This document shows, in pieces, positions 34,091-51,058 of a stretch of 64,000 nt of DNA. The stretch is taken from NCBI RefSeq assembly GCF_003351745.1, contig NZ_CP031222.1, positions 248,001 through 312,000 of the forward strand. The letters run 5' to 3'. The DNA is from Aquirhabdus parva (GTDB lineage Bacteria > Pseudomonadota > Gammaproteobacteria > Pseudomonadales > Moraxellaceae). The translations under genes and the position numbers were made by a program. Under the pieces are notes generated by a model, which did no database searches, had not been told where the DNA came from, and worked only from the letters and a program-made list of their open reading frames with translations. How positions within the stretch are numbered: the first letter of the stretch is position 1; the number at the start of each line of letters is the position of its first letter.

Positions 34091-34181
34091 GGTGAGGTGT
34101 CCGAGTGGCTGAAGGAGCACGCCTGGAAAGTGTGTATGCGCTAATACCGTATCGAGGGTTCGAATCCCTCTCTCACCGCCA
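34091..34181 (+). tRNA. tRNA-Ser (anticodon GGA)
   Basis: 91 nt class II tRNA; acceptor GGTGAGG pairs with TCTCACC (one G-U), CCA encoded, anticodon GGA at 34125-34127, T loop GGTTCGAATCC. It borders the A+T-rich island and its 3' end is a plausible integration site. Confidence 0.96.
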
Positions 34182-34215
34182 AATAGCTGTACACTGTAGT
34201 CCAATACAGACCATT

Positions 34216-34799: not shown

Positions 34800-37148
34800 A
34801 TGGGCTTGACATTTAAGATGGCGGCACGAGCCTTAAGACATTTAGGTGCTGAGTTAATTACATCAGAAGAAATGGCTCTAAATGAGTTAATGAAAAATGC
34901 GTTTGATGCAGGTTCTCCTAAAGTTGAAATAAATATTAGCTATCCAGCCAGTATTAAAGTAGTCGAAGAGTCGCTAAAGATGTTTGTTGGGGGGGGGTTA
35001 AATAAAGCCGAGACAATAGATAAAATTAAAGAAAATACCAAAGAGTATTGCCATGAACGTAATCCTTGTATAGATTTTTTAAAACAATTTGAACAAATAT
35101 TAGAAAAGGTAACAGTCGACAGCATTGATCAAGCTCTCGCTGATATTAAGAGGGAGGCTTACTTCATTAAGGTAAGCGACACTGGGTCGGGTATGACTAA
35201 AGCTGAGCTTGAGTCTGTTTTTCTGACAATTGGAACATCTTCTAAATTAAATATTCAATCTGTTGGAGATCGTGTATTGCTGGGCGAAAAGGGTATAGGC
35301 CGTTTATCCATGATGCGGCTTGGGGATGTTTCTACAGTATCTACAAAAACAATAGATGAAAATAATCTCAATAGAATAAATTTTGAGTGGAGGAAGTTTG
35401 ATGATCCAAATCTTTTTCTTGAACAAATTTCAATTGAGTCTGAAGAGGTAATCCCTGAAGAAGGATTTGTGAAAGGCACTCAGATATTAATTTCTGATTT
35501 AACAAATGATTGGACTTATTCAAAGACAGAAAAGTTTGTTAATGAATATGTTCAGCGCCTCCGTAGTCCGTTTAGTGAAGAGCATGAATCTGATTTTCCG
35601 ATTGGCATTTTTCAGAATAAAAGAAGAATTCCAATCAAGCCTATGCCTAGCTGGTTGATTGAGCAAGCAAACTTTAACGCGACTTATAGTTTTAACCCTG
35701 AAGTAAAGCAACTCGACCATATCGCACTTCAAGGTGAAATAATATGGAAAGACTCAAAGTCTTCAGAAGCTCGAAGCTGGAGTTTGGCTGATTTAATCAG
35801 ATTGTTAGAAGTACCTGTTGAGGATTTTAAAGGAATGGGTGCTTTAAGCATTAAGGCACTTTGGTTTAATAGGAATGATCTTACCCCCACGTTGGAAAGA
35901 AAACTTGGGGATATTAAAAAAGAGCTTAATTACTGGGTTGGAGGTTTTGGGATTTATCGGGATGGATTTCGAATAGGTTTTACTGGAGGGCTTAGCGATG
36001 ATTGGCTGAGTATGGACAGGAAGACCCTGACTAGTCAGGGCTATACTCTAAATAGATATCAAACAGTCGGGGAGGTAGCTATATCAAAAATTATTAATCC
36101 TCATTTACGTGATAGTGCAAACAGACAGTCTTTGATTGAAAATTCGGATTTTATTATTTTAAAGGCACTATTTAGCAAAATAATAATTCGAGATCTAAAA
36201 AGTCGTATAGAAGCATATAAAAAATTACAAGAAGTTATTGCTTTAGATTCATTGTCAAAAACAATAGAGTCAACTGAGGAGTCACATATAAATGCAATCG
36301 AAGCTATTGGTAGAATCGCGAAAAAATTGCCTAAAGAAGATAAGACTGTTCTAGATGGAATTCAGTCGGTAATGAAGAATCAAAGTGAAATTATTGAAGA
36401 TCTTCATTCCAGAATTTTTCAAGTAATGGAAAAAAATACAGATATCCTTGAGCTAGCCAATTTAGGCCAAATGGTTGATATTATTTCACATGAGCTTGCG
36501 CGTATTACGCAAAATACTTCAATGCTACTAGATCGTTTAAAAAATAATCAGGATAATCAGAAAGAAACAGAAAAAATTATGACGGAATTGCGTAAACAAG
36601 TTATTGCAACCGAAAAAAGAATTCGAAGTATAGATGTATTAAGTCCAGCAACAAGGCAAAGAAAAGAGACGTACGATATTACTGCTCAATTTAAAACAAT
36701 ACTTGAAGGGTATGCTCCTAAATTTGCGAGGCATTCAGTCAAGTCCATACTTTTTGTTGATGGCAAGCAGGAGCTTTCTAGCGTTAAAGTGACAATGGTT
36801 AGAGGTCTTGTAGCTCAAATAATGGAAAATTTATTAACAAACTCAGTATATTGGTTACAACAAGGTCTAAAATCTGGAGAACATGAGAGATTTATTGAAG
36901 TAGACATAGATAGTGTATCTCAAGCAATTTTTGTTCGAGATAATGGGCCAGGTATTGATCAAAAGTATAGTCTTGATGTCTTTAAGCCGTATTTCACTAA
37001 TAGGAAAGGTGGTAAAGGATTGGGGTTATATATTGCATCAGAAATAGCAAAATATCATGATGCAAGTCTTTATCTCGATAGTGCAGCAGAAGAGGATGGT
37101 AGATTAAGGACATTTGTAATTCAGTTGCCTAAAGAGTCTCAAAAATGA
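34800..37148 (+). CDS. Double GHKL ATPase (Hsp90/MORC-like plus histidine-kinase-like)
   Basis: 782 residues with two Bergerat-fold ATPase modules. Module 1 (about 1-210) has the N box ALNELMKNAFDAG (E29, N33), G1 box VSDTGSGMT (126-133) and lid GEKGIGRLS (162-170), closest in pattern to Hsp90/MORC/MutL-type ATPases; a middle region to about 460 resembles their transducer segment. Module 2 is kinase-like: a possible H box SHELARITQNT (about 562), N box MENLLTNS (674), G1 DNGPGID (713) and G2 GGKGLGLY (737). It overlaps the next gene by ATGA, so the two are co-translated. The pair faces the sspBCD-like operon. Likely a cytosolic sensor or switch in defence; substrate and signal unknown. Confidence 0.75.
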   Translation: MGLTFKMAARALRHLGAELITSEEMALNELMKNAFDAGSPKVEINISYPASIKVVEESLKMFVGGGLNKAETIDKIKENTKEYCHERNPCIDFLKQFEQILEKVTVDSIDQALADIKREAYFIKVSDTGSGMTKAELESVFLTIGTSSKLNIQSVGDRVLLGEKGIGRLSMMRLGDVSTVSTKTIDENNLNRINFEWRKFDDPNLFLEQISIESEEVIPEEGFVKGTQILISDLTNDWTYSKTEKFVNEYVQRLRSPFSEEHESDFPIGIFQNKRRIPIKPMPSWLIEQANFNATYSFNPEVKQLDHIALQGEIIWKDSKSSEARSWSLADLIRLLEVPVEDFKGMGALSIKALWFNRNDLTPTLERKLGDIKKELNYWVGGFGIYRDGFRIGFTGGLSDDWLSMDRKTLTSQGYTLNRYQTVGEVAISKIINPHLRDSANRQSLIENSDFIILKALFSKIIIRDLKSRIEAYKKLQEVIALDSLSKTIESTEESHINAIEAIGRIAKKLPKEDKTVLDGIQSVMKNQSEIIEDLHSRIFQVMEKNTDILELANLGQMVDIISHELARITQNTSMLLDRLKNNQDNQKETEKIMTELRKQVIATEKRIRSIDVLSPATRQRKETYDITAQFKTILEGYAPKFARHSVKSILFVDGKQELSSVKVTMVRGLVAQIMENLLTNSVYWLQQGLKSGEHERFIEVDIDSVSQAIFVRDNGPGIDQKYSLDVFKPYFTNRKGGKGLGLYIASEIAKYHDASLYLDSAAEEDGRLRTFVIQLPKESQK

Positions 37149-39079
37149 TAAATGTAGCGGTAAGGCCATTGAAGAAAATTCTTGTTATAGATGATGAAAT
37201 TTATGGTATTAGAGCCGACAGAATATATACCGTTGCAAAAGATTTTTTTGAAGAATTAAGGGATATTCATCAACCACTCACAATTAGTTTAGTTAATTTC
37301 TTGGTAAGTAATTCTGATCAATTTGATATTGATTTAACATTAGGAATTAATAATATAGGCCCAACAGATCTTTATAGTCAGGCTATTTCTAAAAAAATTT
37401 TCAAAGAGAATGCTCCAGAAGAAATATTGACAGAGTTGCAGTCCTTATATGATGAGAATGATAATGTCTTGAAAATTCGGGAAGTAATAGAGGAGGCCTT
37501 TCCGAGTAACAGCTATGAAGTAAGCCTTCTGGATAAGTTACCACAAAATGCTTATGATGAAAGTTATTTGGAAGACTTTGATCTTATAATTGTGGATTTA
37601 TATTTACTGCCGCAGCAAGATGATCCCACATCTACCTCTTATTTGAACCATATTTCAAATTTTCCAAACTTACCGCCAATAATTATCATATCTTCTCATT
37701 TCAATAACTTAGATATAGTAAATACTTCTGCATATTTTAGAAAGACTAACTTAAGCGCTACTGGACTTTCCACTTTATCAAAAGAGAAGTTATTATCAAA
37801 TGATTTTGGATCTATGGGTTTACAGCTCATGTTTCAAAAAATGTCAAATCAAAGAGCCATATCAAACAAGACGCGGGCATTAATTCAAACTTGGAAACAG
37901 ACACTTACCGATACTGTGGAATCTTTTTCAGAAACTCTCTGGAAATTGGATGCCTCAATAATGCAACAACTTTATAATGATGCAATCGAAGATACTCAAT
38001 CTTTTGATGACTTGCTCAACTCTTTTTTAAGCAAAGAATTATTATGGCACATGGAGAAATGCTCAAACCTTAAAGTTGCTATGGCGCAACTCTCTGAAGG
38101 TTTTTCTCAAGCAGATAACATAAATTTATTAACGTATGAGGTTGATGTTGCTGCACATCGATCTATGCTTTCCCATCATTTCTACATTGGTGGAGAGCAA
38201 GTCGTAGAGTTATGGAGGGTATACGGGAATGGAAGGCATCAACGAACAGCTTTAAAAGATTTAAACAAAAATCTTCTTACAGTATTGCCATTTGGTTCTG
38301 TTTTGAAGAGTGATACTGCAACAGGTAATTCATTCATTTATATTAATATAACTCAACCTTGTAATTTAGCTAACTTTCCAAGAAGTGTAATTAAGTCAGA
38401 GAACTCACCTAATTCAATTATGCTCATTAGAGCAAAAATCACACCCAAAACTAACGCAAATTTCATTCCATTCAACAGTGAACGAAATATTTCTATTTTT
38501 GAGCTTATTGATAATTATGGAAATATTCTTCAAGCGTATGATGTCGATCCTCAAAGCAGTCAAGTAATAAGTTTGGGTTTAACTGATCTTTTGAGCTTCA
38601 TTAAATTACAGAAGCTCTCAAGAGTTGGACGTATAAGGCCAGAAATTGCTATCAATCTACAGCAACAAGTTGCAATAAATCTAATTCGGCCAAGTCAATC
38701 TCGATTCAAAAGGATAGGATTAAGAAAGGTTGTAGTACTTCTTAAAAAGCGTGGTGAGAGTGAACCTTTAAAGTTTAAGCAGGGGGAAATACTAAATGTA
38801 GTGGAGTCAGAGAAAAACAAAATTACAATACCTGGCCGGGAAAGTTTAGATATGTCCTTATGGCTGTTTAAGCTACTTGATGATGTTAGTTTTAATATCG
38901 AGACAATAAGCGAGGTATTAAGCAAGCCCTTATCACTGACTGCAAAAAAAACGATTTTCCAGAATATCGAAATACAGTTTTATGAAATAGATAATTTAGC
39001 CAATGCACTCCAAAAACTCAGGAGCATGAGCGGGTCAAAAGAATTAAACCTATTCATATTTATTGAAAAAGCTCCTTAA
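37145..39079 (+). CDS. Receiver-like protein paired with the double GHKL ATPase
   Basis: 644 residues. The first 200 show a response-regulator receiver pattern: KKILVIDDE (D16, D17), then DLIIVDLYLLP with a candidate phosphoacceptor D151, PPIIIISSHFN and FRKTN (K200). D17 and D151 are about 130 residues apart instead of the usual 40-50, so roughly 85 residues are inserted between strands 1 and 3. The remaining 440 residues match nothing I recognise and contain no evident DNA-binding motif. It starts within the stop codon of the GHKL gene (ATGA), implying a stoichiometric kinase/receiver-like pair. It ends 38 bp from the converging sspD-like gene. Possibly the effector half of the pair; that is inference. 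Confidence 0.65.
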   Translation: MINVAVRPLKKILVIDDEIYGIRADRIYTVAKDFFEELRDIHQPLTISLVNFLVSNSDQFDIDLTLGINNIGPTDLYSQAISKKIFKENAPEEILTELQSLYDENDNVLKIREVIEEAFPSNSYEVSLLDKLPQNAYDESYLEDFDLIIVDLYLLPQQDDPTSTSYLNHISNFPNLPPIIIISSHFNNLDIVNTSAYFRKTNLSATGLSTLSKEKLLSNDFGSMGLQLMFQKMSNQRAISNKTRALIQTWKQTLTDTVESFSETLWKLDASIMQQLYNDAIEDTQSFDDLLNSFLSKELLWHMEKCSNLKVAMAQLSEGFSQADNINLLTYEVDVAAHRSMLSHHFYIGGEQVVELWRVYGNGRHQRTALKDLNKNLLTVLPFGSVLKSDTATGNSFIYINITQPCNLANFPRSVIKSENSPNSIMLIRAKITPKTNANFIPFNSERNISIFELIDNYGNILQAYDVDPQSSQVISLGLTDLLSFIKLQKLSRVGRIRPEIAINLQQQVAINLIRPSQSRFKRIGLRKVVVLLKKRGESEPLKFKQGEILNVVESEKNKITIPGRESLDMSLWLFKLLDDVSFNIETISEVLSKPLSLTAKKTIFQNIEIQFYEIDNLANALQKLRSMSGSKELNLFIFIEKAP

Positions 39080-39117: not shown

Positions 39118-39960
39118 CTATTTGTGGCAGGTCAGGCACGATCCATTCCCCTCATCCTCTAAATAAAGATCATCTATATCTAGGGTTTCAATTTGTTGGG
39201 GCCGTAATGGGTTGATTGGCTTGCGTTGAATCGCCTTCTGTTTACGTAATTCGAAATCAGCTTGAATTTGTTTAATCCGAGGAGGTTTTTCTAATTCTTC
39301 GAGAGACTCGCCTCTGGACCAAGTAAATGGTGATCCCGCATTTAAAGCTGTCTTTTCATAGGCTTTTGCTTCTTCAAATGCAGAGGGGTGTCTTTCTTTA
39401 AGTCGTACCCATTCAATTTTTTGTTGAAAAAAACAAAACGTACATCCACTACGAGAACGCCATTCGTAATATTTCGGTAAACCAACACCCGATGCTTCTA
39501 GTAACTCGTATACACCGGCTTTATCTATCCCATGTTGGCGAAAAGGGAAAGTAACCTCTAGGTTTTTATGCTGTGATATCAACCCTACTCGGTGCTCCTC
39601 ATCAGCTCGAATGGCAACGTAACTATAAACCTTATCACCTTTCTCTAGCCATGGGCGAATCCAGTTTTTAAATGGTAATAGCTTGAGCTGGCGAGTGCAC
39701 CAGCGCGTCTGGGCACTGGGTAGAAAATCATTATACTGCCTCAGCCAAAAATCGAAGTCACGGTCACCATTGATATATTCAATTTTTTGCCCTAGAAAAC
39801 CCTCAAGTTTTGCTAAAAAGTCATAAACTTCAGGCAATTCCTTCCCTGTATCTGTAAAAAAATAATGGATTTTTAATTCTGGATGATGTTGTCGCATATA
39901 GATTGCAAGTGCTGCACTATCTTTGCCGCCAGAGAGACCTAGGACATGATGTTCGCTCAT
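39118..39960 (-). CDS. sspD: PP-loop PAPS-reductase-family protein, SspD-like
   Basis: 280 residues. SGGKDS at 10-15 is the PP-loop that binds and splits ATP to adenylate a substrate, followed by YFFTDTGKELPEVYDFL, the PAPS-reductase/DndC pattern. Cys residues in WCTRQLK, SGCTFCFF and GSCLTC could carry sulfur or bind a metal cluster. In DndC and SspD this family activates the DNA backbone phosphate for sulfur insertion. Its ATG overlaps the stop of the large ATPase gene by 4 bp. Assignment to SspD rather than DndC rests on the DUF4007 and ATPase partners upstream. Confidence 0.75.
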   Translation of the reverse strand: MSEHHVLGLSGGKDSAALAIYMRQHHPELKIHYFFTDTGKELPEVYDFLAKLEGFLGQKIEYINGDRDFDFWLRQYNDFLPSAQTRWCTRQLKLLPFKNWIRPWLEKGDKVYSYVAIRADEEHRVGLISQHKNLEVTFPFRQHGIDKAGVYELLEASGVGLPKYYEWRSRSGCTFCFFQQKIEWVRLKERHPSAFEEAKAYEKTALNAGSPFTWSRGESLEELEKPPRIKQIQADFELRKQKAIQRKPINPLRPQQIETLDIDDLYLEDEGNGSCLTCHK

Positions 39961-42900
39961 GAGGTTACCTCATCTACTTGCTTTAACTCTTGAATAACTT
40001 TTGTTCCTGCCTCCACTAAAGCCGCTAAAAATATCTCTCTTTTATAGTCACCATTATCCAGAGATTTTAGCAATTGTTCAGATAGAAGTTGAATTTTTAG
40101 CGTATCTTTTTCAGATACATCGAAGGAACCCGTGATAGTTTTTTTATTACCAAATACAACACCAATAGCGCGCCTTGTAGGGGCTCGCTCTCTTAGGTTT
40201 GCAAGTACTTCAAGTCTTCTAAATGCGCTAGACCATGAAAGTAACTGAACTTCTCCTGCATCTAGATCATGGTCTGTCCAGTCCTTACTAGACTTACTTG
40301 TTGCTAGCATAAGTAGACTTTCTATTTCTTCAATTTTGCCTGTATAAGTGCTAAGTCGTGTAGCGAATGCTTCTAGTTTGAAGTCTGCACCTACACCCGA
40401 AACAATTGAGCCTCTATGGTTAAGACTTTCTAGGTCTAAGTCTTGATCGAGAGCGATAAAAAGATTTCGCTCTATATCCCTTAGTCTTAATTCGAAAGCA
40501 TTGACCAATTCAGCTGTAATCATTGATATCTTTGAAGTGATAAAGTGTGCGTCAGTTGAGTTTAGCGCTGTGGGAATATCAACAAATAATACTTTATGTG
40601 GATCAGAAGCATGCAGTAATAAGTTTCTAATAGTCTTAGTTTCTTTAGTCAGCTTATCTGTTCTGCGTGTCCATGCGGGAATTCCGTAAACTATAGAAAC
40701 TAGAGCGCGTGCTGAATCAAGAGGGTCTGTATCTATAGGCCGTTTTAATTGCTCTGTGAGTGATCGAGCCAATTGCGTCAATATTTGTTTTTCGCTTGAT
40801 TGCAGTTCGACATAACGCCAACTGATTCGCCTTGGATCTTGTAACCATTCATCTAAAGAAGCTTCAGTTAGATCAGGGCTAAACATACCATCTGTATATA
40901 CTGCTAAATGCTGTTTATTAGCTAGATAAAATGATAATGCGAATATAGGTAGTAGACCATTTTTAACTCCATATGGCGGTTTGGACCACACGTCATAAAG
41001 ATCTGATAGCTTAATGAGATTTTTTGAACGTTGAACTAGTTTCTTCGTGCTGTTCCAGAGCTGAATGGCTGACGATGAGTTTGGGGATTCTTTCGGCTCA
41101 AAGATATTCCAAATACCATCAATCTCTCGATGTATGCCTAGTGCTTTAATCGTTGTGCGATATAAGCCTGCTGCTGCTGACATTGTATCGAAGCCAAGGT
41201 TTTCAAGATGACTATTAAGTAGCATGGCTCTTAAAAGATCTTTTTGTGCCTTAACTGCGCTAGTGGATAATGCATTTCGATTAACTAACTCACTGATGAC
41301 TTTTGGTGAGTGTTTATAAGTATGATCGGCGATCTCTGAAGCAATACGAGATAAGCCACCTGAATTCACAACATCATTCCAGCTCCATTGGGCATCGTTA
41401 AATGCTTGTCGCAGTTCGTCAGCTAAAGCAATTTTAACAGCTTGGATTCGTGCGGTTACTTCTCTCATAGCAACACTATCAGAGTGAAGTTTTAGACTAT
41501 TGTCTCGAACGAAGTGAAGAGCTGTGAGTTCTTCTAGTAGCCTAAAAATTATTTCCCCGTTTTTTGGTACTCCAATAAGAATGCCTTTTTTAGTTGCAGT
41601 TTTAGCAACCTTTTCTTCTAGTACGAACTGATTATTTTTGTTTTCAATTACATTGGGAATCACTAGCATGAATTCACCGCACGAACTTCCTGAGGCATTA
41701 AAACGTTCTATGTTCTTTACAGCATCTGGTTCAAGGAAGATTGAGCGGGAAAGCCAACGCATAGCTCCCGTTTCCCAATAGTGCTTACGAGCAGTGATAG
41801 GGCTAAGTTCTAGAAAATTCCTAATTTTGGATAAATCGGGTACCCCTATTGTTAGGAGGGCTTCATGAACTGCAGCCTCAATATCAAAGTCACTGCCTGC
41901 ATATACAGCCCATGAATCCGTATGCTTTCTAAAAATTAGAATGGAGGCTAGAGCAAGCTCTGAAAGAGCTTCTTTGGTCTGATCCTCAGTTAGCGTATGA
42001 ATGCAGTAAGTAAGTAGTTGATTTTCAGCGGCTAATCCTGATCCATTTCTCAGAATCTCTATAAGTGCAACTGTTTTAACTAAATTAACATGTAGCGTTG
42101 AAAATATGGCCTCAGCTCTTTCTATCGCATCAACACTTAGCGACCATCGGTGACCATCAACTGATGCGAGAATTGCGGGTTCGAAATTAACTTGAAGATA
42201 GTCCCAAAATTGGTGTGGCCAATAATAGGTTGAGTCTTTTGAGTTGATACCTTTGATGACTTCTGAAAAGCCTAGGGGTTCCGCTGAAGCTAGAAAGCTA
42301 AAAACACTTCGCTCATTCTGTCCAAATTTCTTCTTTGACGCGGGGCCAAGCATTGCGGCCGTGACGGGATGTAAAGGCCAGCAAGAGTCCAGAAGTTGGG
42401 CTATATTAGGTGCTGCGCTTGGTCTTCTTTTAAGAATAACTTTTGCAATTTGATCGGCAGTTTGTGAGCTATTCGGATGATCTAGATTAGTATTAATGGC
42501 TTGACCGATTAACGATACTGTTTCATCGGTTCCAGCAACAAGTGGTATGTCGACATAGCGCCCCTGCACTTTTGCCCAGTCTTGTTGGGCTGCAAATCCT
42601 AGACGGGATGCATATTGTTCAAAAGATTGATGCAATACCCCTATAACAACTAGGTTCCCTTTGCACCGAGCAGCAGCTTCCGCAAGCGTTTGATAGAAGC
42701 CAATATCTTCACCAGTATATGCAGCATGCTCCAAAGACTTTCCGAGCTCGTCAATAATTAGTAATACACCTGCATTTTCAGAAGTATTTTCTGCTAAGTC
42801 CAAGAGGCGGGCTATAACGGGCTGTTCTGAATCTTGAAATATTTTTGACTCATTACAAACATGATCCAAGGATGATGCAATTTGGACTTCAATTGGCGCT

Positions 42901-43259
42901 CTTTTCCCTACAATTGGTATAACTATCCAAGGTTTATCTGAATCAAAAAATTGTTTAATTCCTTGATTGATGTCTCCTAAAGTTTTGCTTGCTATTTTTC
43001 TGGTTTCTTTTGATCCACCTGCTAGAGAGGCTAAGGTTAGAGCTAACAAAGACTTGCCACCACCGTACGGACCAGTCCAAGTAAAAGCTCTTTGTTGAGT
43101 TAGACTTAAGTGATTGCCAGTAATCTCGAGTAAGTGTTTTGCTGAAGCCTGTAGAATGTAGCCTTCAATAGCATCAACTCTCCCAAAATCCATATCAATT
43201 CGAACTGAACGCAAAAAATGGCGTTGAACCGAAACGACATCTGATAGATTTTTATACAT
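39957..43259 (-). CDS. sspC: Large P-loop ATPase, SspC-like
   Basis: 1100 residues. The N-terminal P-loop domain has Walker A GPYGGGKS (63-70) and Walker B LLIIDE (166-171); the remaining 800 residues are largely helical with no second motif I recognise. A protein of this kind between a DUF4007 protein and a PAPS-reductase-like protein matches SspC of the single-stranded phosphorothioation system (DNA-binding ATPase of the modification complex). It overlaps sspB by 8 bp and sspD by 4 bp, so the three are translated as one unit. Low G+C and AT-rich codon use match the island. Confidence 0.7.
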   Translation of the reverse strand: MYKNLSDVVSVQRHFLRSVRIDMDFGRVDAIEGYILQASAKHLLEITGNHLSLTQQRAFTWTGPYGGGKSLLALTLASLAGGSKETRKIASKTLGDINQGIKQFFDSDKPWIVIPIVGKRAPIEVQIASSLDHVCNESKIFQDSEQPVIARLLDLAENTSENAGVLLIIDELGKSLEHAAYTGEDIGFYQTLAEAAARCKGNLVVIGVLHQSFEQYASRLGFAAQQDWAKVQGRYVDIPLVAGTDETVSLIGQAINTNLDHPNSSQTADQIAKVILKRRPSAAPNIAQLLDSCWPLHPVTAAMLGPASKKKFGQNERSVFSFLASAEPLGFSEVIKGINSKDSTYYWPHQFWDYLQVNFEPAILASVDGHRWSLSVDAIERAEAIFSTLHVNLVKTVALIEILRNGSGLAAENQLLTYCIHTLTEDQTKEALSELALASILIFRKHTDSWAVYAGSDFDIEAAVHEALLTIGVPDLSKIRNFLELSPITARKHYWETGAMRWLSRSIFLEPDAVKNIERFNASGSSCGEFMLVIPNVIENKNNQFVLEEKVAKTATKKGILIGVPKNGEIIFRLLEELTALHFVRDNSLKLHSDSVAMREVTARIQAVKIALADELRQAFNDAQWSWNDVVNSGGLSRIASEIADHTYKHSPKVISELVNRNALSTSAVKAQKDLLRAMLLNSHLENLGFDTMSAAAGLYRTTIKALGIHREIDGIWNIFEPKESPNSSSAIQLWNSTKKLVQRSKNLIKLSDLYDVWSKPPYGVKNGLLPIFALSFYLANKQHLAVYTDGMFSPDLTEASLDEWLQDPRRISWRYVELQSSEKQILTQLARSLTEQLKRPIDTDPLDSARALVSIVYGIPAWTRRTDKLTKETKTIRNLLLHASDPHKVLFVDIPTALNSTDAHFITSKISMITAELVNAFELRLRDIERNLFIALDQDLDLESLNHRGSIVSGVGADFKLEAFATRLSTYTGKIEEIESLLMLATSKSSKDWTDHDLDAGEVQLLSWSSAFRRLEVLANLRERAPTRRAIGVVFGNKKTITGSFDVSEKDTLKIQLLSEQLLKSLDNGDYKREIFLAALVEAGTKVIQELKQVDEVTS

Positions 43260-44196
43260 ATGCGCCTCTCAGGATTCTTAGCTTTGCTTGATCCATATTT
43301 TCATTGCCAATTCTGCTAACCTGACGAATACCCGAACTATCGGTCCACTGTAGATAATTGTCTGTTATTTCAGAAATTCTAGATAAACGATCGCTAACAG
43401 CATCCTCATCTAACTTGAAAACTCTACCGGGTGAGCTATAGTCATGAGCAATCAAATTAAACGCTAATGTGGTTTGTGATGAGTTTGATGCTCTTTCACA
43501 TCGACTCCAGAAATCTAGTAATGCAAAACCAAATACTGCATCTGATAAAGAGTGTTGAGCACCTCTATTAAAGTGATATTGTCCCTTACCTACCATTGAA
43601 ATTAGACCTAGACTGGCCAACAAAGGTTCAATGTTATCTTCTGTGTCGTGAGCAGAAACATAACATTTCAGGCAGGTCTCAACATCTCTAGATACTGTTG
43701 AATCAGATCTGACGGCCTTATTTGACTGTGTAAAATCAGAAATAATAGAAATAATATCTTCGTTTTTAAAGGTTTGGTTTTGGATAAGATTAAAAATAAT
43801 GTGCAAAGTAGCTGAGCGTTTTGAGCGCCCTGCAAGCAGCCAATGTACTAACCATATACTAGCTTCATGTTCAAGAAATTGATCTACACCGCTATCTTCA
43901 TCAAAGAGTAATGTCCCAATTTCACCTATTTCGAAACCATTTTGTTCAGTACTTTCTTTAATCACGTCACAAGCCAGAGCCCAATGTTTTATCGAGGAAA
44001 CCATATTCTTTCCAACACCAAATCGTTCAATTGCATCTTCTGCAGAAAAAACTGTTTTTGGCGCGCAATGATTTTGTTTATCAGTGAATTGAACTATTTG
44101 AGAGTAAGCTTTACGTAGCCATAGTTGTCGGAGAGGGAAAGTTTCATGACCCGAAAACATCGGTTTTATATCTGATGGAAAGCGAATGTTACTCAT
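43252..44196 (-). CDS. sspB: DUF4007-family protein, SspB-like
   Basis: 314 residues. MFSGHETFPLRQLWLRKAY near the N-terminus and FGVGKNMVSSIKHWALACDV are the DUF4007 (PF13182) signature. SspB of the Ssp phosphorothioate system belongs to this family as I recall it and nicks DNA so that sulfur can be introduced at C-C-A sites. It is the first gene of a minus-strand operon with sspC and sspD. The start ATG has no clear ribosome binding site. Three copies of CCAGTA/TACTGG lie 17-55 bp upstream of the start and may be an operator. DUF4007 also occurs in other PAPS-reductase-linked loci, so the Ssp label is likely, not certain. Confidence 0.72.
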   Translation of the reverse strand: MSNIRFPSDIKPMFSGHETFPLRQLWLRKAYSQIVQFTDKQNHCAPKTVFSAEDAIERFGVGKNMVSSIKHWALACDVIKESTEQNGFEIGEIGTLLFDEDSGVDQFLEHEASIWLVHWLLAGRSKRSATLHIIFNLIQNQTFKNEDIISIISDFTQSNKAVRSDSTVSRDVETCLKCYVSAHDTEDNIEPLLASLGLISMVGKGQYHFNRGAQHSLSDAVFGFALLDFWSRCERASNSSQTTLAFNLIAHDYSSPGRVFKLDEDAVSDRLSRISEITDNYLQWTDSSGIRQVSRIGNENMDQAKLRILRGAYV

Positions 44197-44212
44197 GTGC
44201 TGGTGATTCCGT

Positions 44213-44251
44213 CCAGTAGCGATGGATTGTTACTGGAGGATTCTACCAGTA
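44213..44251. promoter_or_regulatory. Triple CCAGTA/TACTGG repeat upstream of sspB
   Basis: CCAGTA (44213-44218), TACTGG (44231-44236) and CCAGTA (44246-44251) alternate in orientation with 12 and 9 nt spacers, 17-55 bp upstream of the sspB start. Candidate binding site for a dimeric regulator; it could also form a hairpin in the leader. Confidence 0.35.
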
Positions 44252-44378
44252 AGCAATCAAAAACTAAATGTTAATCTCAGAAGGAGTACGGTCGGTACCG
44301 TTTCTCTACTACTAATAATTCACACTGCCTTTAATTGGAGACTCGTATTAGTCAATTAGGCTACAAAATTTAAGTGTA

Positions 44379-44445
44379 TTTTGATTGTGTTACTTTATCA
44401 TATTGCGCTATTCTTTTGTTAAATGATTATGTAACGCAATCAAAA
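44379..44445. promoter_or_regulatory. Large dyad at the start of the UmuD-like gene
   Basis: TTTTGATTGTGTTAC (44379-44393) and GTAACGCAATCAAAA (44431-44445) are inverted copies with one mismatch in 15, 37 bp apart. The last base of the right arm is the first base of the ATG start codon. The arms flank the likely promoter, so this resembles a two-site operator for autorepression, or an RNA hairpin that would hide the start. Confidence 0.5.
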
Positions 44446-45053
44446 TGAGTGAACAATCAAAAAAACGCGGTGGCCGGCGAGACGGTGCGGGTCCAAAGTT
44501 TAAGTACAATGAACCAACCGTAACGATGCGGATACCACAATCACGAGTTGAGTACTTAAAAGCATGGTTGCATAGCCAATCACCTGATTTGAGAAATGAC
44601 TCATCCAATAATATTAAAATTCAAACTATTACAATAAATCCAAAGGCATTGGAAATACCTTTGATGTTAGATTATGTAGCTGCTGGATTTCCAGCACCAG
44701 TAGCTGAGGCCATTGATCGTGGAATTGACTTCAATAAAGAGTTGATAAGGAATAGAGCTTCAACTTTTGTTGTCACGGTTAATTCGTTATCTATGCTGAA
44801 TATTGGTATTGATATTGGAGATAAACTTGTTGTTGATCGTTCAATTGAACCAAAACAAGGGCACGTAGTATTGGCAGTTATTAATACAGAATTTACTGTA
44901 AAGACCTTAATGATTGAAGGCATTGGGGATAAAAAAATAATCTGGCTTCGAGCTGAAAATCCAGATTTTGCATCTATCTTTCCAATGGATGGTGATGATT
45001 TTTTAGTGTGGGGGGTTGTCACAAATGTTCTTAAAGATATGTTGAAAAAGTAA
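44445..45053 (+). CDS. UmuD/LexA-like S24 peptidase with N-terminal extension
   Basis: 202 residues. The C-terminal half is an S24 self-cleaving domain: cleavage site A80-G81 in VAAGFPAP, nucleophile S116 in LSML and general base K153 in FTVKTL; the 37-residue Ser-Lys spacing equals that of UmuD S60-K97. The N-terminal 45 residues (RGGRRDGAGPKFKYNEPTVT, then MRIPQSRVEYL) are an added basic segment like that of Acinetobacter UmuDAb, a DNA-damage-controlled repressor that self-cleaves with RecA. There is no umuC next to it. It is divergent from sspB and may regulate the island in response to DNA damage; that is inference. Confidence 0.75.
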   Translation: MSEQSKKRGGRRDGAGPKFKYNEPTVTMRIPQSRVEYLKAWLHSQSPDLRNDSSNNIKIQTITINPKALEIPLMLDYVAAGFPAPVAEAIDRGIDFNKELIRNRASTFVVTVNSLSMLNIGIDIGDKLVVDRSIEPKQGHVVLAVINTEFTVKTLMIEGIGDKKIIWLRAENPDFASIFPMDGDDFLVWGVVTNVLKDMLKK

Positions 45054-45118
45054 GAGGTATTTTGGATAACTATTATCAGTGGAGTTCCTTTTGAAATAAG
45101 TTTCATCTTCCCCACATG

Positions 45119-45223
45119 AACAGAATTTAATAATTCACCCAGCTCTCCCTTCATCCGCGCACGCGTATCATTACTCACTACACCCTGTGATGCGCTGCTA
45201 TGTCCCGTCAGAAAGATAAACCC
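45119..45223 (-). other. Possible remnant of a tyrosine recombinase C-terminus at the island edge
   Basis: Just outside the UmuD-like gene, on the minus strand, an open stretch reads LTGHSSASQGVVSNDTRARM and then KGELGELLNSV. An LTGHSS segment followed by a helical tail is reminiscent of the C-terminal box of some phage-type integrases, but the catalytic Tyr is absent and the frame has a stop at 45224. It overlaps the start of the next plus-strand gene. Very tentative; included because an integrase scar is expected at this boundary. Confidence 0.2.
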
Positions 45224-46696
45224 TTAGCCTTCAATCATTTTCCCTTGATACACACCTGTGGATTGCTCATCTGCGCAAGCGTTACGCTGACTGCCTGTAG
45301 CGTGGGTCCGACCTATGTTCGCCCAACCACGCCGCAACCCAGCGCATGGTTAACCGAGCAGGGCAGTGGAGTTACACAGGACACCCATCGGCAGTGGTGG
45401 CAGCGTTTTGGCTCGCCAGAATTAAATAGTCTGATTGAAAAGGCCACACACAATAATGACGACCTCGCCGCCGCCGTGGCACGAGTCGAGCAGGCGGATG
45501 CGACTGCACGGATTGCGGGTGCAAGCCTACGGCCCCAAGTAGACCTTGGAGCCACAGCGACCCATGCCCGCTCAGAAGCTTCAAGTGGCGGCATGCAAAC
45601 CCACTCTCAATATAGCCCGCTGCTCTCTGCCAGCTACGAGATCGACTTCTGGGGCAAGAACCGTGCTGCACGCGAAGCCGCCATCGCCGCTGCCAAAACC
45701 AGTCGCTATGACCGAGCCACTGTAGAGCTTGCCGTCATGACCAGCGTGGTCAGCGACTACTTTCAAGCCTTAGCACTGCGTGACCGCATCAGCATCGCGG
45801 AAAACAACCTTAAGAATGCCCAAACCACCCTAAAAGGCCTGCAAACCCAGCAAAGCGTCGGCATCATCACCGCCCTAGACACCGCACAGCAAGAAACTGC
45901 TGTGGCAACCCTCTATGCCTCGATTCCCCCGCTGAAACAACAACTACGCCAACTGTGTGATGCACTGGCGATCCTGACCGGGCAGTTGCCTGAAGCAGTC
46001 GATATCCCCAGCGGCAGTCTGGCAGGACTGACCACACCCGTGATCGAAGCGGGCTTGCCCTCTGAGTTACTCGCACGTCGACCCGATGTCGCCGAGGCCG
46101 AGGCGCAATTGATCGCAGCCAATGCCAATATCAAAGTGGCACGTGCCGCGTATTTCCCCAGTATCAGCCTGACCGCAAATGGCGGCTTTGTCAGCAATAC
46201 GCTGTCCACCGCACTGAGTCCTGCCAATCGGGTCTTTAGCCTTGCGGCAGGTCTGACGCAGCCGATCTTTGCGGGCGGGGCGATCAGCGGGCAATACGAC
46301 TATAGCAAGGCGCGCTATGCCGAATTACTGGCGGACTACCACAAGACCGTGATCAGCGCCTATGCCAATGTCGAAGACGCACTGGTCGCCGTACAGCAAA
46401 CCGCAGAGCAGCAAAGCCGCCAGCAGGCCGCTTTTGATAAGGCACAACATGCCTATAGCCTTGCCAATGCCCAACTGCATGCGGGCACCGTCAATATCCT
46501 CACCGTGCTAAGTACCCAGCAAGCCGTATTCAGTAGCGATGACCAACTGACCCAAGTCAAACTCGCTCACCTGCAAGCCCTGCTGTCACTGTATAACGCC
46601 CTAGGCGGCGGCTGGCAGCAAGAAGAATCACAACATTCACCAACCAGCACCTCATCTGCGATCGCGCAAGCCCGTTTAGGAAATACCCATGACTAA
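45200..46696 (+). CDS. Outer-membrane efflux factor lipoprotein (NodT/OprM family)
   Basis: 498 residues. The signal ends in lipobox LTAC, followed by SVGPTYVRP, the standard start of mature OprM/NodT proteins. Two repeated halves each contain a long helical hairpin (ALRPQVDLGATATHARS-like segments and AYFPSISLTANGGFVSN) forming the trimeric channel-tunnel. The ATG at 45200 lacks a ribosome binding site. First gene of a five-gene series with adaptor, RND permease, response regulator and sensor kinase; its 3' end overlaps the adaptor gene by 8 bp. Codon use is G+C-richer than the island to its left. Confidence 0.92.
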   Translation: MSRQKDKPLAFNHFPLIHTCGLLICASVTLTACSVGPTYVRPTTPQPSAWLTEQGSGVTQDTHRQWWQRFGSPELNSLIEKATHNNDDLAAAVARVEQADATARIAGASLRPQVDLGATATHARSEASSGGMQTHSQYSPLLSASYEIDFWGKNRAAREAAIAAAKTSRYDRATVELAVMTSVVSDYFQALALRDRISIAENNLKNAQTTLKGLQTQQSVGIITALDTAQQETAVATLYASIPPLKQQLRQLCDALAILTGQLPEAVDIPSGSLAGLTTPVIEAGLPSELLARRPDVAEAEAQLIAANANIKVARAAYFPSISLTANGGFVSNTLSTALSPANRVFSLAAGLTQPIFAGGAISGQYDYSKARYAELLADYHKTVISAYANVEDALVAVQQTAEQQSRQQAAFDKAQHAYSLANAQLHAGTVNILTVLSTQQAVFSSDDQLTQVKLAHLQALLSLYNALGGGWQQEESQHSPTSTSSAIAQARLGNTHD

Positions 46697-47942
46697 TCCC
46701 ACGCCCAACCCGACGCCCGCGCCAACTGCAACACCGCAAACTCCCGCTCAGCCTGAGCGTAAAAAGACCCGTGTGATCATGATCGGGGCAACCGTGGTGG
46801 TAATCGGTGGACTGGTCTGGTATGGCAGCGGTTCACATGACAAAGCCGCCAAAGCTGATACCGGTAAGCCCAAAGCCGTGACGGTTGAAACCACTCGCGT
46901 CACTCGCATGGACATGCCGCAATATCTCGAAGGGCTGGGGACCGTACAAGCGTTTAACACCGTCACCGTAAATACGCGGGTGGATGGGCAATTGCAAAAG
47001 ATCGGCTTTACCGAAGGACAAACCGTGAATCGCGGCGATGTCTTGGCACAGATTGATCCCAGGCCAAATCAGGCGGCGCTGCTACTGGCACAGGCCAACA
47101 AAGCCAAAGATGAAGCCCAGCTTGCCAATGCCAAACGCGATCTGGCGCGCTACCAACTGCTTGAACCGCAGCAGCTCACCAGTAAACAAACACTAGACGC
47201 CCAGCGGGCCACGGTTGCCCAGCTTGCGGCACAGGTGCAAGCGGATCAGGCCGCGGTGGACAATGCCAAAACCCAACTCGACTACACCACCATTACCTCA
47301 CCGATTACGGGTCGCACTGGGATTCGCTTGGTGGATGTCGGCAATATGGTGCATAGCACCGATACCACGGGTATCGTGGTCGTGACGCAGATGCAGCCGA
47401 TCTCGCTGATCTTTACCCTGCCCGAAGAAGCACTGAGCCAAGTCAATCAGGCACTGGAGAAGGGCAAAGTGCCTGTCGCTGCACTGGCGCGGGATGGCAG
47501 TAAGATACTGGATCAAGGCACGCTGGCCCTAGTGGATAACCAGATCAACCAGACCTCGGGCACCATCAAACTCAAAGCAACTTTTGGCAATAGCCATCTC
47601 CAGCTCTGGCCGGGACAGTTCATCAATGCCCGTTTGCTGCTGCAAGTTCACCAGCAAGCCTTGACCATTCCCGATAGCGCCGCACAGCGTGGTCCGAATG
47701 GCATGTTTACCTATGTGTTGAAGCCGGACTCGACGGTCGAAGCAAGACCGATCAAAGTCGGTATTGATACCGGTAAGGTGATGGTGGTGGAGAGCGGACT
47801 TACCGAGGGTGAGCAAGTCGTGACCAATAACCAATATCGCCTGCAACCCGGTAGTAGCGTCAAGGTTAAAGATGCCAAAAAAGATAAAGCGCCACACGCC
47901 AAAGATGACGCGTCAGCAGATAAGGCAGGTGCGGCATCATGA
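46689..47942 (+). CDS. RND periplasmic adaptor (MdtA-like)
   Basis: 417 residues. A single N-terminal membrane anchor (MIGATVVVIGGLVWYGSGS) without a lipobox, preceded by a Pro/Thr-rich cytosolic tail, then lipoyl halves (QKIGFTEGQTVNRGDVLAQI and ITSPITGRTGIRLVDVG), a Gln/Ala-rich helical hairpin between them (about 130-190), beta barrel and a charged Lys/Asp/Ala C-terminus. MdtA and MuxA are the closest recalled families. It overlaps the genes on both sides, so the pump is one translation unit. Confidence 0.92.
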   Translation: MTNPTPNPTPAPTATPQTPAQPERKKTRVIMIGATVVVIGGLVWYGSGSHDKAAKADTGKPKAVTVETTRVTRMDMPQYLEGLGTVQAFNTVTVNTRVDGQLQKIGFTEGQTVNRGDVLAQIDPRPNQAALLLAQANKAKDEAQLANAKRDLARYQLLEPQQLTSKQTLDAQRATVAQLAAQVQADQAAVDNAKTQLDYTTITSPITGRTGIRLVDVGNMVHSTDTTGIVVVTQMQPISLIFTLPEEALSQVNQALEKGKVPVAALARDGSKILDQGTLALVDNQINQTSGTIKLKATFGNSHLQLWPGQFINARLLLQVHQQALTIPDSAAQRGPNGMFTYVLKPDSTVEARPIKVGIDTGKVMVVESGLTEGEQVVTNNQYRLQPGSSVKVKDAKKDKAPHAKDDASADKAGAAS

Positions 47943-50900
47943 ATATTTCCGCACCGTTTATTCACCGTCCGATTGCCACGTCACTCCTTATGGCAGGCAT
48001 CTTTTTGATTGGTCTGGTGGCGTATCCCATGCTGCCCGTTGCGCCGTTGCCGCAGGTGGATTTTCCGACCATCTTGGTGTCGACCAAGCTATCGGGTGCC
48101 AGTCCTGAGACCATGGCGTCTTCGGTGGCACAGCCACTCGAGACCCAGTTTGCCCAGATTCCCGGGGTCAGTCAGATGACCTCGACCAGTGTGTTGGGCT
48201 CGACTCAGATCACGCTACAATTTGATCTCAATCGCAATATCGACGCCGCAGCACAGGACGTCCAGTCAGCGATCACCGCTGCGGGCGGTCAATTGCCAAA
48301 AAACCTGCCTTCGCCACCGTCTTACCGCAAGGTCAATCCTGCCGATGCGCCGATCCTGACCTATAGCGCGCACTCCGATGTCTTGCCCCTCACCGAAGTC
48401 GATGACTATGCCGAAACCGTGGTGGCACAGCGTTTATCCCAAATCGCGGGGGTTGCGCAGGTATCGCTGGGTGGTCAGCAGAAGCCCGCGATCCGCGTTC
48501 AGGTTGATCCGGCCAAGCTCGCCGCGACAGGTCTACAGCTTGAGGATGTTGCCAATATCATCACCACGGCAAGTGTCAACGCGCCCAAGGGATCGATCAG
48601 CGGCACCAAACATAGCTTTGCCATCTATAACAACGACCAGTTGCAGAAAGCCGCACCGTGGAATGACGTGATCATCGCCTATAAAAATGGCGCACCGATA
48701 CGGGTACGTGATATCGGTATCGCGGTGGATGGCGCGGAAAATACACAACTTGCCGCATGGCAAAACGGCAAGCCCGGTATCATCCTGCAAGTGTTTAAAC
48801 AGCCCGGTTTTAACATTCTTGATACCGTTGCCAATATTGAAAAAGTCCTGCCAGACGTGATGGCGGCAGCGCCTGCATCGCTCAAGCTGGACAAGATCAT
48901 AGACCGTACCACGACCATCAAGGCGTCGGTGGATGATGTGCAGTTCACCCTGATCCTGACGATTTTCCTTGTGGTGATGGTGATTTTTCTGTTTTTGCGC
49001 ACCTTCTGGGCGACCATCATCCCCGGCATTACCGTGCCTTTGGCATTGATGGGTACGGCAGCGCTGATGTATGCGGTGGGCTATAGCTTGGATAACCTAT
49101 CGCTCATGGGCTTGACCATCGCGGTGGGTTTTGTGGTGGATGATGCCATCGTGATGCTGGAAAACATCTATCGCCATATCGAAGAGGGCATGACCCCCAA
49201 GGAAGCCGCGCTGAAAGGCTCGCAAGAGATTGGCTTTACCATTTTGACCATCAGTATTTCGCTGATTGCAGTGTTTATTCCACTGCTGCTGATGAGCGGG
49301 ATCATTGGGCGGCTGTTCCGTGAGTTTGCCATTACCGTGACCATGACCATTGCGGTATCAGCGCTGGTGTCGCTGACGCTATCACCGATGATGTGTGCGC
49401 TGTTTTTGCGTGATGAGCGGCATGCCCAGCATGGCAAAGTCTATATGTTTATCGAAGGATTATTTGACAAGCTGCTTGCGGGGTATAGCCGTGCTTTGGA
49501 TAAGGTTCTGCGTCATCAAGGCCTGACCATGATTGTCTTTGTCCTGACCATCGTCAGTACTGGATTCTTATACGTTGCCATTCCTAAAGGATTTTTTCCC
49601 CAGCAGGACACGGGCATCATTGCGGGGTTGTCGGATGCAGCTCAGGATATCTCCTTTGATGAAATGGTGCGTGTCCAGCATCGCCTGACCGATGTGATTG
49701 CCAAAGACCCGGATATTGCCGGGTGGGCGGCTTCGGTCGGGGGTACGCGACCACTGAATAATGGTCAGATCAATATTGGGTTAAAACCCCGTGATGAGCG
49801 CACGGCGTCTGCCGATGAGATCATTACCCGACTACGCAAAGAGCTGGCAAAAGTTCCGGGTGCGACGCTGTACTTGCAAGCATCGCAGGACTTGAATGTC
49901 GGTGGGCGGCTGTCGCGCACGCAGTATCAGTACACCATTCAGGATGCGGATCTGGAAGAGCTGGATGAGTGGGCGCCTAAGCTGCTTACGGCATTGAAGG
50001 CCTTGCCACAACTGCGTGATGTCGCGTCTGACCAACAGACCAACAGTACCATGCTGTCACTGGTCATTGACCGTGATCAGGCGGCACGCTTTGGCATTCA
50101 GCCATCGCTGATTGACCAGACCTTATATGATGCCTTCGGTCAGCGCCAAGTGGGTCAGTACTTTACCCAGCTCAACAGCTATCACGTGATTCTGGAAGTC
50201 ACGCCAACCCTGCAAGCTGATCCCAATACCTTAAACAAACTGTATATCACTTCGCCCCTGACCGGTGAGCAAGTGCCACTGTCAACCTTTGCGCATTTTG
50301 ATACGCAGCATGTCGCGTTCCTCTCAGTCAATCACCAAGGACAATTCCCTGCGGTGACGCTGTCGTTTAACCTTGCGCCAAACATCGCGCTGAGTCAGGC
50401 GGTGGATGCGATTAACAACACTGCCAGCAAGATCGGTATGCCGAGTTCCGTGTCTGGCACCTTTCAGGGTACTGCCCAAGCGTTTCAGTCATCGCTCAAG
50501 AGTCAGCCATATTTGATTCTGGCGGCGCTGGTTGTGGTCTATCTGATTTTGGGTGTGCTGTATGAGAGCTATATTCATCCGCTGACCATTCTCTCCACCT
50601 TGCCTTCGGCGGGTGCGGGGGCACTGTTGATGCTGATGTTGTTTCACTTTGAGCTGTCGGTGATTGCCTTGATCGGGATCATTTTGCTGATCGGGATTGT
50701 TAAAAAGAACGGCATTATGATGGTGGATTTTGCGATTCAGGCCGAGCGAGAGCAGCACCTGTCGCCTGAGGCGTCAATCCGTCAGGCGTGTTTATTGCGC
50801 TTCCGTCCGATCATGATGACCACCATGGCGGCGCTGCTGGCGGCATTGCCGCTGATGCTCGGGCATGGTACGGGCTCGGAGCTGCGCCAACCGCTGGGTT

Positions 50901-51058
50901 ATACCATGGTGGGTGGTTTGCTGCTTAGTCAAGCATTGACCTTGTTTACCACACCAGTCGTGTATTTGTACTTGGATCGTTTTAGTCTACGCTTGGCGCG
51001 TCGCCGTGAGGCGCGTAAGGCACGTCGGGAGCAGGCGGCGCTTGTACATAAGTCATAG
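47939..51058 (+). CDS. RND efflux permease (MdtB/MdtC/MuxB-like)
   Basis: 1039 residues, twelve helices with two periplasmic loops. IHRPIATSLLMAGIFLIGLV then LPVAPLPQVDFPTI is typical of the Mdt/Mux branch, and helix 4 carries the proton-relay Asp pair in GFVVDDAIVMLENIYRHIEE. MdtBC and MuxBC pumps normally have two RND subunits; only one is encoded here, so it may work as a homotrimer. Start overlaps the adaptor stop (ATGA). Regulated in all likelihood by the two-component genes that follow. Confidence 0.93.
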   Translation: MNISAPFIHRPIATSLLMAGIFLIGLVAYPMLPVAPLPQVDFPTILVSTKLSGASPETMASSVAQPLETQFAQIPGVSQMTSTSVLGSTQITLQFDLNRNIDAAAQDVQSAITAAGGQLPKNLPSPPSYRKVNPADAPILTYSAHSDVLPLTEVDDYAETVVAQRLSQIAGVAQVSLGGQQKPAIRVQVDPAKLAATGLQLEDVANIITTASVNAPKGSISGTKHSFAIYNNDQLQKAAPWNDVIIAYKNGAPIRVRDIGIAVDGAENTQLAAWQNGKPGIILQVFKQPGFNILDTVANIEKVLPDVMAAAPASLKLDKIIDRTTTIKASVDDVQFTLILTIFLVVMVIFLFLRTFWATIIPGITVPLALMGTAALMYAVGYSLDNLSLMGLTIAVGFVVDDAIVMLENIYRHIEEGMTPKEAALKGSQEIGFTILTISISLIAVFIPLLLMSGIIGRLFREFAITVTMTIAVSALVSLTLSPMMCALFLRDERHAQHGKVYMFIEGLFDKLLAGYSRALDKVLRHQGLTMIVFVLTIVSTGFLYVAIPKGFFPQQDTGIIAGLSDAAQDISFDEMVRVQHRLTDVIAKDPDIAGWAASVGGTRPLNNGQINIGLKPRDERTASADEIITRLRKELAKVPGATLYLQASQDLNVGGRLSRTQYQYTIQDADLEELDEWAPKLLTALKALPQLRDVASDQQTNSTMLSLVIDRDQAARFGIQPSLIDQTLYDAFGQRQVGQYFTQLNSYHVILEVTPTLQADPNTLNKLYITSPLTGEQVPLSTFAHFDTQHVAFLSVNHQGQFPAVTLSFNLAPNIALSQAVDAINNTASKIGMPSSVSGTFQGTAQAFQSSLKSQPYLILAALVVVYLILGVLYESYIHPLTILSTLPSAGAGALLMLMLFHFELSVIALIGIILLIGIVKKNGIMMVDFAIQAEREQHLSPEASIRQACLLRFRPIMMTTMAALLAALPLMLGHGTGSELRQPLGYTMVGGLLLSQALTLFTTPVVYLYLDRFSLRLARRREARKARREQAALVHKS

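Follow-up and report, generated by a model that had tools for sequence, protein, structure and literature searches.

The locus

The window analyzed here is a 64,000-nucleotide stretch of Aquirhabdus parva DNA, and the host genome (G000) consists of one contig of 3.78 Mb. The window carries a gene for a UmuD-type protein of 202 amino acids (aa) beside an ssp operon. The two had been predicted to be divergent, and this is the case, since sspB, sspC and sspD all lie on the minus strand. The features are as follows:

39118–39960, minus strand: sspD, PAPS-reductase-like (Pfam, PADLOC)
39957–43259, minus strand: sspC, ATPase (PADLOC)
43252–44196, minus strand: sspB, DUF4007 (Pfam, PADLOC)
44199–44217, minus strand: ssp dyad 2, ACTGGACGGAATCACCAGC, of the form TGG-N9-CCA; 2 nt before the sspB ATG and 33 bp from dyad 1
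44232–44250, minus strand: ssp dyad 1, ACTGGTAGAATCCTCCAGT, of the form TGG-N9-CCA, with an extended −10-like element, TGGTAGAAT, inside
44378–44446, no strand assigned: whole dyad of the original prediction, with 24-nt arms (44378–44401 and 44423–44446) that are complementary at 21 of 24 positions (88%)
44381–44401, no strand assigned: operator box 1, TTGATTGTGTTACTTTATCAT; differs from the UmuDAb operator at 1 of 13 positions
44423–44443, no strand assigned: operator box 2, ATGATTATGTAACGCAATCAA; 1 mismatch of 13, ending 1 nt before the ATG
44445–45053, plus strand: UmuD-type S24 protein of 202 aa, with a basic extension at the N-terminus, cleavage site A80-G81 and the catalytic residues S116 and K153

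The GC content is 37% in 44197–45060, 40% in the ssp genes and 35% in 34800–39079, compared with 55% in 45200–51000. On the left, kup and a tRNA-Ser(gga) gene (34091–34184) are syntenic in three same-genus genomes. The similarity ends at 34184, directly after the tRNA, so the DNA beyond is variable within the genus. From the tRNA-Ser region to the right edge, no exact repeats of at least 11 bp were found. We also asked whether the three same-genus genomes have an orthologue of the efflux gene on the right and rejected this, the matches being 23–34% identical. Between the UmuD-type gene and this co-directional efflux gene (start at 45200) we saw no terminator-like site (45054–45199), so read-through from one into the other is conceivable.

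Neither SspA nor SspE was found among the six proteins of the segment that were scanned with PADLOC. The stretch 34800–39079 holds a two-gene unit convergent with sspBCD, coding for a 782-aa protein with two HATPase regions and a 644-aa protein with no Pfam match. The same unit also faces sspBCD in three other loci (L085, L225, L226) and is broken up in L102. It is possibly an effector partner that replaces SspE or SspFGH. Of 348 genomes of the family, 20 encode DUF4007, the host genome among them.

The UmuD-type protein

A Peptidase_S24 domain covers residues 72–192 of the 202-aa protein (Pfam, E 2.2e-19). The NCBIfam UmuD model NF007621 scores 131.8 bits, above its cut-off of 110, and the LexA model scores 60.1 bits, below its cut-off of 110.95. 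Residues A80, G81, S116 and K153 do not vary in any of three homologue alignments (6, 10 and 33 sequences). The distances from A80 to S116 (36 residues) and from S116 to K153 (37 residues) are the same as in E. coli UmuD, where we take the cleavage site and catalytic positions to be 24, 60 and 97. The prediction of these residues with UmuD spacing is thus confirmed by Pfam, NCBIfam and the alignments.

The predicted basic N-terminal addition of the UmuDAb kind is also present. An alignment of 18 N-termini shows that the extension carries the motif GGxRxxAGRK..EPT..R.P. UmuDAb residues E24, K40, A83-G84, N100, S119, G124 and K156 correspond to E23, K39, A80-G81, N97, S116, G121 and K153 here, with the UmuDAb numbering read off the A. 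nosocomialis homologue L116 and the E24 match deduced from the adjoining column. A further position is changed: N41 of UmuDAb is A40 in the 202-aa protein. PMC11332147 describes a UmuDAb mutant in which N41 was changed to proline together with a change of K40.

In the AlphaFold model the C-terminal domain is good and the N-terminus is poor, with a mean pLDDT of about 50 for residues 1–20. The best-modelled N-terminal piece is helix 32–44, which is only fair. The top structure matches of the model are UmuD′ and LexA. Pfam identified no DNA-binding domain in the N-terminus, with one sub-threshold match in a homologue. As Pfam gave none and the structure model is poor there, we dropped the assignment of a named DNA-binding fold.

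The absence of a umuC partner, likewise predicted, holds at the locus. The best tblastn match of UmuC has an E value of 4.9 in the whole window and 0.62 in the 2.1 kb downstream of the gene, and on these values umuC remnants beside the gene were rejected as well. A separate umuDC pair lies elsewhere in the genome, at 1.14 Mb, where umuC follows a second UmuD gene that lacks the N-terminal extension. These are the two UmuD-type genes that the 202-aa query detected in the genome, and the extension is present only in the product of 44445–45053.

Two operator boxes before the gene

The original prediction described a 15-bp dyad, with 14 of 15 positions matching, that reaches the start codon. This dyad exists and is part of a larger one with 24-nt arms (21 of 24 complementary), separated by a 21-nt spacer in the repeat search. 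The best 24-nt arms obtained by chance reached 17 of 24 (150 dinucleotide shuffles of 44197–44446). The arms are two 21-bp boxes, each of which matches TTGA-N4-GTWAC-N4-TCAA in all but one position. According to PMC11332147, TTGA(N4)GTWAC(N4)TCAA is the UmuDAb operator of Acinetobacter. The mismatch sits in the inner arm of both boxes. Their centres are 42 bp apart, or about four helical turns, which would place both on the same face of the DNA. In 44197–44445 there are two boxes with at most one mismatch. Among 5000 shuffles, 4997 had none, three had one, and two were never seen.

The arms had also been thought to flank the promoter region. The promoter scan gave no support for this, with no plus-strand promoter-like site in the gap. 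The scan returned 5 promoter-like sites versus 3.4 in shuffles. Neither a promoter nor a ribosome-binding site of the UmuD-type gene was recognisable.

We examined whether the box accompanies homologous genes. A scan of named genomes with the homologue alignment gave 171 relatives, the best 80 of which were kept (74 titled Acinetobacter), and the box was searched up to 350 nt upstream of the start that we had chosen for each. A box with at most two mismatches lies upstream of 78 of these best 80 of 171 homologues. The best box has no mismatch in 59, one in 16, two in 3, four in 1 and five in 1. In 1600 shuffles, no box was perfect, 4 had one mismatch and 37 had two; the reversed pattern upstream of the same 80 homologues gave two mismatches in 2 of the 80 and nothing better. 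In the same-genus homologue L103 (identical to L003; from a metagenome-assembled genome of the Moraxellaceae), a perfect box lies 3 nt ahead of the ATG, and umuC follows the gene. For homologues L004, L008, L011, L015 and L016 the search gave no box even at three mismatches, and L010 has only three-mismatch sites. None with up to two mismatches was found for L007, L009, L012 and L014, and L013 has one with two.

In the best 80 of 171 homologues, umuC lies directly downstream in 54 and is missing in 26, one of which is at a contig end. All seven UmuDAb-type loci examined among these 26 have a small divergent gene for 76–83 aa with a shared beginning. Because its residues fit the published numbers and 7/7 loci have this ddrR-like divergent gene, we took the chromosomal 203-aa type to be UmuDAb, an identity set by residue numbers and neighbour gene, not via a record named UmuDAb or DdrR.

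Genome context and phylogeny

No LexA above the cut-off was found in the host genome. The LexA profile matches only the two UmuD-type genes, both below the cut-off. In the other genomes of the genus, the profile gave one match below the cut-off each in G001 and G003 and none in G002. With up to three mismatches allowed, neither the 300 nt before the genome's umuDC nor the 1.48 kb before recA contains a box. Since these leaders lack it, the box pair looks private to the UmuD-type gene and its neighbourhood.

Genome-wide, 17 places match the box with one mismatch, both operator boxes included, and none matches perfectly. We inspected 13 of the 15 other one-mismatch places, and 4 of them lie outside any open frame of at least 90 codons; the two not inspected are copies of one repeat. 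A tighter pattern built from both arms has fewer than two mismatches at box 1 and box 2 only, the pattern being derived from them. At up to two mismatches there are 130 matches versus 117 for a reversed control pattern, so there is no clear enrichment. A wide regulon in this genome was rejected on these results.

A tree was calculated from 54 proteins, namely 42 of the 80 loci plus 12 others. In it the 202-aa protein joins the UmuD proteins of its own genus and one of another genus in an open fork with weak support (87/72), apart from the supported clade (100/97) that 15 UmuDAb-type rows form. The AU test did not reject a union with the UmuDAb-type clade (p 0.157) or a clade with the UmuD of its own genome and L103 (p 0.081), the groups in both cases having been named after the tree was seen.

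The ssp leader and its own dyads

It had been proposed that the divergent arrangement could tie defence to the SOS state, and a search for the same half-site upstream of sspB homologues had been named as a check. The proposal is not supported. We searched 1.2 kb before sspB (less in L086 and L091) in the 19 other ssp loci of the Moraxellaceae and saw no box with at most two mismatches (0/19); the box goes with umuD genes instead. Conversely, ssp genes are absent from the flanks, up to 6 kb long, that were retrieved for the best 80 of 171 UmuD-type homologues (0/80). The closest ssp islands found are two of four A. baumannii records, with identities to the window of 70% for SspB, 59% for SspC, 83% for SspD, 59–62% for the HATPase protein and 31% for the 644-aa protein. 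In 24.9 and 16.9 kb, respectively, neither island shows a UmuD-type match or a box with at most one mismatch. On these three results we discarded the idea that sspB and the repressor gene share an operator. Searches within PMC12421847, PMC10853773 and PMC12839542, which treat Ssp, Dnd and BREX, turned up no mention of UmuD or LexA.

A UmuD match occurs in one of the 19 other ssp loci, L092, where it adjoins a UmuC match and SspB is 32% identical. The umuC and umuD matches of L092 lie 1.6–3.3 kb upstream of sspB, with a divergent frame in between that by eye resembles sspA (cysteine desulfurase). In A. baumannii VB1190 (L225, 5700–11238), an annotated endonuclease, transposases and an excisionase lie on the far side of sspB, suggesting to us that the carrier of sspBCD may be Tn7-like.

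The leader of the ssp operon has elements of its own, a dyad pair with a −10-like element located 130 nt beyond box 1. In L102, from genus g15, the dyad reads ACTGGTATAATTCACCAGT and contains TGGTATAAT, with the TGGTAGAAT of the window at the equal place. We read TGGTAGAAT and TGGTATAAT as putative extended −10 promoter elements, and dyad 1 is a probable ssp promoter/operator separate from the boxes of the UmuD-type gene.

With the dyad defined as TGG-N9 or N10-CCA plus at least 3 of 6 further symmetric positions, it is present in 26 of 34 leader regions, compared with a mean of 0.28 and a maximum of 3 in 500 mononucleotide shuffles. Both E. coli loci examined have it, with two dyads each, at −62 and −29. 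It was also found in 2 of 8 class-wide loci outside the 34 (L211 and L216, scanned from the match start). The total is 31 of 45 loci, including L231, which counts formally only and is hardly real as it lies within the upstream coding gene, and L216, which is counted regardless of any coding overlap. The counts leave out L221–L224 (weak or second matches), and the rows are not independent: many genus g9 loci are near-identical, L225 and L226 share dyads, and L213 and L235 share theirs. No dyad was found near the start in alphaproteobacterial sspA-first operons (L229, L232–L234) or in Thermomicrobium. The repeat was seen in L084, L087–L095, L097–L102, L211–L213, L225–L228, L230, L235, L236, L247 and L248, and in weaker form in L085 and L096. 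The dyads occur in Gamma-, Beta- and some Alphaproteobacteria. In several loci two copies lie about 30–60 bp apart, the distance being 33 bp in both the window and E. coli.

SspABCD modifies the motif CCA, according to PMC9646914. As the half-site of the dyad is this CCA, the Ssp mark, the Ssp machinery might feed back on its own operon, a side observation open to test. In an unsystematic comparison we noticed no other gene common to the annotated ssp loci, and an Ssp protein would be a natural candidate for the reader of the dyads. We found no published ssp operator or regulator in the literature, including the accessible part of PMC8092258, and this does not prove absence. We tentatively suggest that the 248-nt gap holds two unrelated operator pairs, with an Ssp protein or the phosphorothioate state of the promoter feeding back on ssp and an SOS input, coming from the repressor and confined to this genome, as a second layer; this is a possibility that we regard as doubtful in its entirety.

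A probable local autorepressor

The product of 44445–45053 is most probably a UmuDAb-like local autorepressor, and neither a master LexA nor the regulator of ssp. The mechanism is proposed because of published work on UmuDAb, with which operator and residues are shared. Repressor dimers would occupy the GTWAC-centred boxes at 44381–44401 and 44423–44443, covering the leader up to the start codon, and occupation of the boxes would shut off transcription of the UmuD-type gene. On DNA damage, a RecA filament would stimulate self-cleavage at A80-G81 by S116/K153. The N-terminus, which would bind DNA, would thereby come apart from the dimerising C-terminus, and derepression of the gene would follow. 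The neighbouring ssp operon would stay under its own promoter-like and operator-like dyads. We infer binding, cleavage, induction and ssp independence alike. The original prediction of an autorepressor relieved by DNA damage is upheld by homology, in that the operator, the catalytic residues and most of the mutation-tested UmuDAb residues are kept; RecA-stimulated cleavage as the step that would lift autorepression has strong support from the same homology.

The gene could instead be a former polymerase-V subunit that lost its umuC, with the boxes as leftovers and the protein serving at most as a spare UmuD for the umuDC genes at 1.14 Mb. The frequent umuC downstream of homologues, the weak fork with UmuD proteins and the score above the UmuD model cut-off fit such an origin. 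We nevertheless consider it unlikely, as the protein is full-length with the catalytic and most UmuDAb residues kept, both boxes are intact, and the 26 of 80 homologues that also lack umuC include the seven examined loci with a ddrR-like divergent gene. A repressor that acts on the divergent ssp operon as well as on its own gene, so that DNA damage would switch defence on, appears somewhat less likely still. It would agree with the divergent arrangement, with the position of both genes in the low-GC segment that begins after tRNA-Ser, and with a weak promoter-like site pointing left (44453–44426, 9 of 12), which overlaps box 2. Against it stand the number of promoter-like sites, 5 versus 3.4 in shuffles, the separate dyad pair and −10-like element of ssp, and the lack of any association between box and ssp genes in the 19 loci, the 80 homologues and the nearest islands. 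It is highly improbable that the protein stands in for LexA in this genome and controls a wide regulon through boxes that have diverged past the consensus used. That the genome has no LexA above the cut-off and that this is the sole N-extended one of two UmuD-type genes would speak for such a role, whereas the count of box matches close to the reversed control and the absence of boxes before recA and umuDC argue against it.

With the local autorepressor as the preferred reading, a UmuDAb-like, LexA-independent autorepressor and its operator are now placed outside Acinetobacter, in another genus of the Moraxellaceae, whose four examined genomes all lack a LexA above the cut-off. This placement could help to date the switch in SOS control. 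The tempting story of an SOS-controlled Ssp defence is now set apart from what the comparison supports, and the leaders of ssp operons carry a conserved element that can be tested.

Comparison with known systems

DdrR aids UmuDAb. UmuDAb itself represses the umuDC genes and ddrR in Acinetobacter, as stated in PMC11332147 and PMC4807011. The protein described here resembles it in length (202 versus 203 aa), in the N-terminal motif and in the cleavage and dimer residues. The operator sequence, the box upstream of its own gene, the frequent lack of an adjacent umuC and a host genome with no LexA above the cut-off are also shared. It differs in having sspB as its neighbour and not a divergent ddrR-like gene, in its two boxes 42 bp apart, and in the genome's umuDC lacking a box. 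The longest minus-strand frame in the gap between sspB and the repressor gene has 26 codons, so no small divergent frame of the ddrR kind was found there. A search for DdrR-like proteins was negative in all 58 genomes (0/58) and shows little, as it had no positive control.

The N-extended UmuD proteins of umuDC/rumAB operons on Acinetobacter plasmids and chromosomes have an equal architecture, about 43–50% identity and, in the homologue loci retrieved here, a box upstream of the gene. They are mostly followed by umuC, unlike the gene at 44445–45053. LexA shares the self-cleaving S24 C-terminal domain and the logic of autorepression, and differs in its N-terminus and operator, and the profile score here is below the LexA cut-off. 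The neighbouring genes resemble the Ssp phosphorothioation defence (SspBCD) in that PADLOC models identify sspB, sspC and sspD in the window. They differ from it in that none of the six scanned proteins is SspA or SspE and the HATPase gene and the 644-aa gene face the operon instead.
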